Below, in pieces: positions 22,490 to 60,367 of a DNA stretch of 64,000 nucleotides. The position numbers and the translations under genes are program-made. Every line of letters starts with the position of its first letter. Within the stretch, counting starts at the first letter, position 1. The DNA comes from an uncultured Acetatifactor sp. GTDB taxonomy: Bacteria > Bacillota > Clostridia > Lachnospirales > Lachnospiraceae. The DNA is taken from the NCBI GenBank assembly GCA_947594835.1, contig CANQEH010000005.1, positions 1 through 64,000 on the forward strand. The letters are read 5' to 3'. Below the pieces are notes generated by a model that did no database searches, was not told the DNA's origin, and worked only from the letters and a program-made list of their open reading frames with translations.

Positions 22490-22521
22490 AAAATATAACA
22501 GTTTGGCTTTTGCCGGGTACA

Positions 22522-22678
22522 GCCCAGCACTGCAAAGGGCCTCCCTGCAGCCACGCTTTCGCTCGACGCGCAGCGTAATGGCACTAGGCTCGACAGTACC
22601 TCGCAAGCGCCCGAACTTTGGCGCTTTAGTGCCAACGCTGCTTTACGGTCTGCTGGGAGGCCCTTCGCAGCGCTGGGC
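22522..22678. repeat. Dispersed palindromic element, copy 1 (divergent)
   Basis: Outer arms 22522-22550 and 22650-22678 are inverted repeats (26 of 29 positions). The core (22551-22649) has CGCTTTCGCTCGACGC, then GCTCGACAGTACCTCGC, then GCTGCTTTACGG, shared with the elements near 31.0 kb and 60.2 kb. Inside, GCAGCGT...GGCACT pairs with AGTGCC...ACGCTGC. Unlike other copies it carries an additional small hairpin (AAGCGCC with GGCGCTT, near 22605-22626) in the apical region. The element starts 33 bases after the symporter stop. No convincing protein is encoded. Confidence 0.85.
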
Positions 22679-22737
22679 GTTGCCAGTCGGGGAAGCTGGA
22701 CTGTTGTGAAAGGATCAGACGAACTCTCGGGCTTGTC

Positions 22738-30888: not shown

Positions 30889-30902
30889 GGATAGTGAGTG
30901 GT

Positions 30903-31040
30903 CCGGCGCTGCCAGGGGGCTTTTCGCAGGCCGTAAAGCAGCGTTGGCACTTGGCGAGGTACTTTCGAGCCTGGTGCCGCTACGCTGTGCGTCGAGCGAA
31001 AGCACGCCTGTGAAAAGTCCTTTGCAGTAACGGATACCTC
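30903..31040. repeat. Tandem palindromic element, unit A
   Basis: First of three direct repeats of about 137 bases. It carries the left outer arm (from 30903) and the shared core (GTAAAGCAGCG, GCGAGGTACTTTCGAGC, CGTCGAGCGAAAG), but its right end does not pair back to its own left arm over the full length. The segment GCCTGTGAAAAG near its right end is complementary to CTTTTCACAGGC in unit B. Confidence 0.88.
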
Positions 31041-31176
31041 CCGGCGCTGCCAGGGGGCTTTTCACAGGCCGTAAAGCAGCGTTGGCACTTGGCGAGGTAC
31101 TTTCGAGCCTAGTGCCGCTACGCTGCGCGTCGAGCGAAAGCGCACCTGTAAAAACCTTTGCAGTAACGGATACCTC
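31041..31176. repeat. Tandem palindromic element, unit B
   Basis: Second unit, starting with the same bases as units A and C and nearly identical through the core. The right end (CACCTGTAAAAACC) is a decayed relative of unit A's right end. A shared linker, TTTGCAGTAACGGATACCTC, joins A to B and B to C. Confidence 0.88.
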
Positions 31177-31308
31177 CCGGCGCTGCCAGGGGGCTTTTCG
31201 CAGGCCGTAAAGCAGCGTTGGCACTTGGCGAGGTACTTTCGAGCCTAGTGCCACTACGCTGCGCGTCGAGCGAAAGCGCGCCAGCGAAAAGCCCCCTGGC
31301 AGCGCCGG
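31177..31308. repeat. Tandem palindromic element, unit C (complete, with closing arm)
   Basis: The left arm 31177-31201 is perfectly complementary to the right arm 31284-31308 over 25 bases. Because units A and B begin with the same sequence, the right arm could pair with any of the three left arms. The core stem is GCAGCGT (31212-31218), GGCACT (31220-31225) and GGC (31227-31229), pairing with GCC (31243-31245), AGTGCC (31247-31252) and ACGCTGC (31256-31262). The 51 bases from here to the next gene hold only its ribosome binding site. Confidence 0.9.
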
Positions 31309-31359
31309 GCAGAGTCAGACTGTTACAAGAAATGTAAGGAAAGGGATAGGGAAAGGCAC

Positions 31360-60114: not shown

Positions 60115-60134
60115 TTTTTCCGCCAGGAAAGGCA

Positions 60135-60263
60135 GGCGCGTCCGATGTCCTCTGGGCAGACACGCTTTCGCTCGGCGCAGCACGCAGCGGTCACTAAGCT
60201 CGAAAGTACCTCGCTAAGTGCCGGCGTGCTTTTACGGTCTGCCCAGAGGACATCGGACGCGCC
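60135..60263. repeat. Dispersed palindromic element, copy 3 (compact)
   Basis: Outer arms 60135-60161 and 60237-60263 are perfectly complementary over 27 bases and unrelated in sequence to the arms at the other two sites. The core (60162-60236) keeps CGCTTTCGCTCGGCGC, GCTCGAAAGTACCTCGC and TTTTACGG. The inner stem GCACGC (60180-60185) pairs with GCGTGC (60224-60229), and AGC (60197-60199) with GCT (60213-60215), both changed in a compensating way relative to unit C. It starts 20 bases after the trmD stop. Bases 60264-60367 beyond it hold no gene that I can support. Confidence 0.88.
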
Positions 60264-60367
60264 GCGTGCCAACCGCAGCTCAAATTTTGCCGCTTTGTCG
60301 GCCACAGCGGTTGTCTGCCGTGTCATGTTATCAGTGCGGCAGTTGTCGGCGCGGTGCAAATTCATGC

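Follow-up and report, generated by a model that had tools for sequence, protein, structure and literature searches.

Three sites in the analysed window, a 64-kb stretch of a contig from an uncultured Acetatifactor sp., carry copies of a hairpin element whose core 17-mer has five matches in the window, against 0.15 expected from shuffles. Site 1 is a single plus-strand unit at 22522–22678 (covariance model 115 bits), with 29-nt arms starting at 22522 and 22650 (22522–22550 and 22650–22678) that are 90% complementary (26/29 paired). Its apical loop segment, GCTCGACAGTACCTCGC (22588–22604, plus strand, located by the core 17-mer search), is followed within the apical stem by an extra small hairpin, AAGCGCC..GGCGCTT (22605–22626, plus strand), which is missing from other copies, similar insertions being seen elsewhere in the family. 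Degenerate terminal repeats lie on either side, ATAACAGTTTGGC on the left (22495–22507, plus strand; family form GTAACAGTTCAGC) and ACAACAGTCCAGC on the right (22695–22707, minus strand). Three minus-strand units make up the tandem array of site 2. The first (31175–31310, covariance model 154.7 bits) has 30-nt arms, starting at 31176 and 31280, that are 97% complementary; the second (31039–31171) and third (30901–31035), delimited by arm comparison and the covariance model, each have one diverged arm. By comparison with the family terminus, a terminal repeat, GTAACAGTCTGAC, is present at one end of the array (31314–31326, minus strand), and none was recognised when the sequence of the second end was inspected. 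Site 3 is again a single plus-strand unit (60131–60267, covariance model 139 bits), with the apical loop segment GCTCGAAAGTACCTCGC at 60198–60214 on the plus strand, also from the 17-mer search. Its inner 27-bp arms, starting at 60135 and 60237, are perfectly complementary (27/27), yet the flanking terminal repeats are barely recognisable. Recognisable ends are gone from most window copies, where the terminal repeats are degenerate or one-sided. The initial annotation of this DNA had described three sites with a shared core and arms complementary within each site, and all of these are present, as five units.

A unit consists, in order, of a 31-pair outer stem, a conserved short segment (CGC-TTTC-GCTC), an inner stem and an apical stem with the same loop as at site 3, and it closes with the short return TTTACGG. 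Core length stays close to 136 nt even among very different species, and in some relatives (L046, L075, L108, L121, L034 and L029) complementarity reaches 60–80 bp per arm. A covariance model built from 12 units and searched against the element's own 2.76-Mb genome, as had been proposed earlier, returned exactly 14 copies (E 1e-18 to 1e-29), which agrees with the original description of a dispersed structured element. The family is abundant among gut Lachnospiraceae, with at least 109 copies in the sister genome G061, and within the genus it occurs unevenly, in 20 of 31 genomes. Viral contigs searched for the 14-base terminus contained no more than chance-like matches and none to the core, and plasmids and phages lacked matches to the full unit. 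A published description of the family was not found in the literature searched, coverage of which was incomplete. Association with intrinsic terminators is weak (13 on the left and 7 on the right among 151).

The ends of intact copies are GTAACAGTTCAGCC terminal repeats in inverted orientation, 194–199 bp apart in most copies, and units bounded in this way occur in G012, a Robinsoniella assembly and some copies of the own genome. Copies with these ends in related species measure 196 bp. In 45 terminal-repeat-bounded copies from several species, exactly 8 flanking bases are duplicated, with an identity of 0.725 versus 0.275 when shuffled and about 0.40 at offsets of 7 or 9. Within the genus, IS66 elements end in GTAACTATTCAG or GTTACAGTTCAG and are flanked by perfect 8-bp duplications; copies L298, L301 and L295 share their ends with the hairpin element. 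For a published element of the ISBst12 group, the ends are GTAACTGCTCAGCA and the repeat is likewise 8 bp long (PMC12898284). Because the terminal repeats and 8-bp duplications match those of IS66/ISBst12 elements, we infer that the hairpin element is a non-autonomous transposon, a MITE derived from ISBst12-type IS66 elements. It is too short to encode the TnpC (DDE_Tnp_IS66) transposase, and a search of its own genome for the IS66 transposase (PF03050) found no match, so that only an IS66/ISBst12 derivative is possible. As expected of a MITE, it is short and non-coding, has many dispersed copies, and carries terminal inverted repeats with an 8-bp target duplication; an autonomous element with shared ends is provided within the genus by the IS66 copies and by none in the own genome.

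The element thus resembles MITEs of the ISBst12 group of the IS66 family, which are likewise short, gene-free, intergenic and dispersed and have GTAACnnTTCAGC terminal repeats and 8-bp target duplications. It differs from them in that the centre is conserved and not the ends alone, the arms and apical hairpin evolve in concert, inverted pairs are frequent, and the copies of a few species have other ends. In L034 and L029 the core is unchanged and the ends are different, CACGGAAATCAATTTTCA, with apparent 9-bp duplications (CTGCTGTAA and GAAAGGAGG), which suggests that the core switched transposon ends there. REP/REPIN elements, which are moved by a Y1 (RAYT) transposase, are also intergenic palindromes with tens to more than 100 copies and inverted pairs, and the hairpin element could be assigned to them on these grounds. 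Unlike them, it has very long copy-specific arms and target duplications, the 8-bp length of which fits a DDE transposase, and it lacks an association with Y1 transposases: a search of the window's genome found no Y1 transposase, and the Y1 genes of other carrier genomes are neither flanked by such hairpins nor close to one. We therefore rule out a RAYT/IS200 origin, and regard a REP/REPIN-type element as hardly credible. The initial annotation could match the element to no known class; its terminal repeats and 8-bp duplications place it with the MITEs, and it is best described as an unusually dynamic form of MITE or palindromic repeat.

At site 3, the genes on either side also adjoin each other in several relatives, where about 250 bp less separates them; in G006, for instance, the aligned flanks lie 154 bp apart, versus 406 bp in the window. 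The junction in these relatives is likely to be an unoccupied site. Since the arms lie inside the terminal repeats, they arrive with the element, which answers a question that the initial annotation had left to a comparison of occupied and empty sites.

The arms had been described as unrelated between sites, a view that is not upheld when the copies are aligned in full. The left arms of 11 own-genome copies have a mean identity of 64%, compared with 29% when shuffled, and the arms at different sites are diverged homologues. Most departures of own-genome arms from the family majority occur in both arms, with pairing kept. It had also been objected that a simple transposed sequence would carry the same ends everywhere. 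Exactly this is seen in a young expansion in G012, where recent copies have near-identical arms, terminal repeats and target duplications. Nearly all of the G012 copies share a tolerated mismatch, TACTGCC on one side versus TAATGTC on the other, and versions of this stretch matched in either direction also occur; furthermore, one young copy (L405) has a private two-base change in both arms.

We compared orthologous copies in three sister genomes (G017, G061 and G043). Two-sided pair changes number 13 among 28 orthologous copies in two sister species, where 2.0 would be expected (P ~2e-7), and when the partner is slid by 1–3 columns only 1–4 two-sided pairs remain. Thus, in line with the initial annotation, the match between arms within a site is not due to chance. 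In the orthologues L055 and L069, the deletion of one base pair is likewise compensated. All helices of the element covary strongly, and in 134 non-redundant copies the arm columns contain all four Watson–Crick pairs except at the innermost few.

Covariation is usually taken as proof of functional RNA structure. If a structured RNA were made from the element, or folded within mRNAs, selection for RNA pairing would drive the compensatory changes in the arms, and the covariation of every helix is what such selection would produce. On the strand opposite to the drawn one, 130 of 133 copies have a GNRA-type tetraloop in the conserved segment, and the pair that closes it covaries, although the distant copies were gathered with the exact 17-mer, which makes loop conservation there a matter of construction, the loop statistics also resting on copies found by the covariance model. 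The conserved loop hints at an RNA function, for which it is the strongest evidence. The element also evolves more slowly than its surroundings, with a divergence per site of 4.9% in arms and 7.0% in loops, compared with 15.0% in intergenic flanks and 15.2% in spacers between paired copies, that is, 2–3 times slower in arms and loops than in flanks. Unbiased copying does not slow divergence, and therefore selection, correction biased toward the old sequence, or homogenisation by other copies must contribute. These rates and the conserved loop speak against a purely neutral history and make a role as RNA or for the host conceivable.

Selection on RNA normally leaves many G-U intermediates. In the 134 non-redundant copies, however, wobble pairs amount to about 2% on either strand, and one-sided changes in P1 show no clear strand preference (39 to G-U on the plus strand, 30 on the minus strand and 23 other). 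Among 134 copies, 0 to 3 show an intermediate in the apical toggles between G-C and A-T. Of the features expected of a functional RNA, the conserved GNRA loop is found and the tolerance of wobble on a transcribed strand is not. Furthermore, the element lies in almost random orientation to the genes around it (27 against 19), and the Rfam covariance models contain no family that matches the element. A loop–loop pseudoknot between CTTTCG and CGAAAG, suggested by the sequence, was discarded because the partners do not covary. On balance, we consider it rather unlikely that RNA-level selection maintains the arms.

The scarcity of G-U intermediates makes DNA-level copying from arm to arm a better account than RNA selection and the most likely reason why the arms keep matching. 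Copying of this kind has been proposed for RNA genes, which offers a precedent for the mechanism (PMC8794818). The template-switch-maintained RNA hairpins of that study resemble the present case in that concerted two-sided changes keep the stems perfect; here, in contrast, the hairpin is a dispersed transposon with arms of 30–80 bp, and the changes are seen between orthologous insertions. As 95 one-sided changes are still present across 50 comparisons of orthologues, the copying is not fast. Of the two options in the initial annotation, the creation of inverted copies comes closer, but the template would be the element's own second arm instead of host DNA. The other option, selection for pairing, loses ground at the RNA level because wobble pairs are nearly absent. 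Pairing might instead be selected in the DNA itself, if a hairpin or cruciform served transposition or protein binding and only well-paired copies survived or multiplied. In keeping with DNA pairing, G-T is not favoured over A-C, and the 136-nt core length is conserved across species. Nevertheless, the young and successful G012 copies bear up to three arm mismatches, and old copies with degenerate ends are still well paired, so that pairing persists after mobility is lost; selection of this kind therefore appears quite improbable.

At orthologous sites where the arms are nearly unchanged (26–31 of 31 pairs), the 36–40-nt tip is often swapped in its entirety for a form that other members of the family carry (as in L367/L458, L363/L474, L366/L453, L373/L445 and L378/L493), and 30 of 31 two-sided changes in the apical stem go from one Watson–Crick pair to another. 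This suggests that the tip is exchanged between dispersed copies, with assembly error as a possible alternative, since the comparative genomes are mostly metagenome assemblies, in which repeats can be misjoined. Such exchange accounts for the impression of a common centre and local arms.

Taken together, we think it probable that the family is a MITE moved in trans by an IS66 transposase, with DNA-level copying between arms and apical exchange between copies. ISBst12-type IS66 transposases would move the element and generate the 8-bp target duplication, as its anatomy indicates, and the long arms inside the terminal repeats would arrive together with it. After insertion each copy would drift, and DNA-level processes at the hairpin, either template switching during replication or repair inside an extruded hairpin, would often transfer mutations in one arm to its partner or remove them. 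Such copying, to which we attribute the observed concerted double changes, would yield arms that are site-specific yet self-complementary. Short-tract gene conversion would probably carry the apical hairpin, whose replacement is seen at orthologous sites, from one dispersed copy to another. It is decidedly unlikely, by our estimate, that a dedicated process swaps apical cassettes among more than 100 loci and rewrites both stem strands at once, for example through a single-stranded DNA or reverse-transcribed hairpin intermediate, which would make this a self-editing repeat family and not an ordinary MITE. With dozens of orthologous hairpins that covary strongly and largely without wobble intermediates, the family lends itself to a direct test of the extent to which DNA-level arm copying can mimic RNA selection. 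If confirmed in isolates, tip exchange between loci would represent an unusual form of bacterial concerted evolution, with tracts of about 35 bp.

Neighbouring copies are often arranged as inverted pairs with their left ends outward. Every one of the 20 non-tandem pairs of neighbours among the loci retrieved shows this arrangement (loci include L363, L364, L366, L370, L055 and L069), as do, genome-wide, 25 of 26 pairs in G061 and all 11 in G043. These pairs often combine two different arm types and have partly alignable spacers, and an inverted pair may itself move as a unit. Tandem arrays with triple core matches like site 2 are found at G083:C11:529566-529912 and G080:C22:16748-17179, with spacings of 130 and 181 bp. 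A further hairpin type, TGAAGGAAATCACTAAGCTCGAAAGTACCTCGCTAAGTGATTTCAAGCTTCA, has the same loop on a different, near-fixed stem (L037, L043, L066, L078 and L110). Finally, the apical hairpin CACTARGCTCGAAAGTACCTCGCYAAGTG occurs without arms in other Lachnospiraceae (L053, L060, L061, L082, L086, L094, L104, L105 and L106), frequently as a pair with a spacing of 44 nt, in places that include the gap between rplK-like and rplA-like genes and the vicinity of rpsG and fusA.
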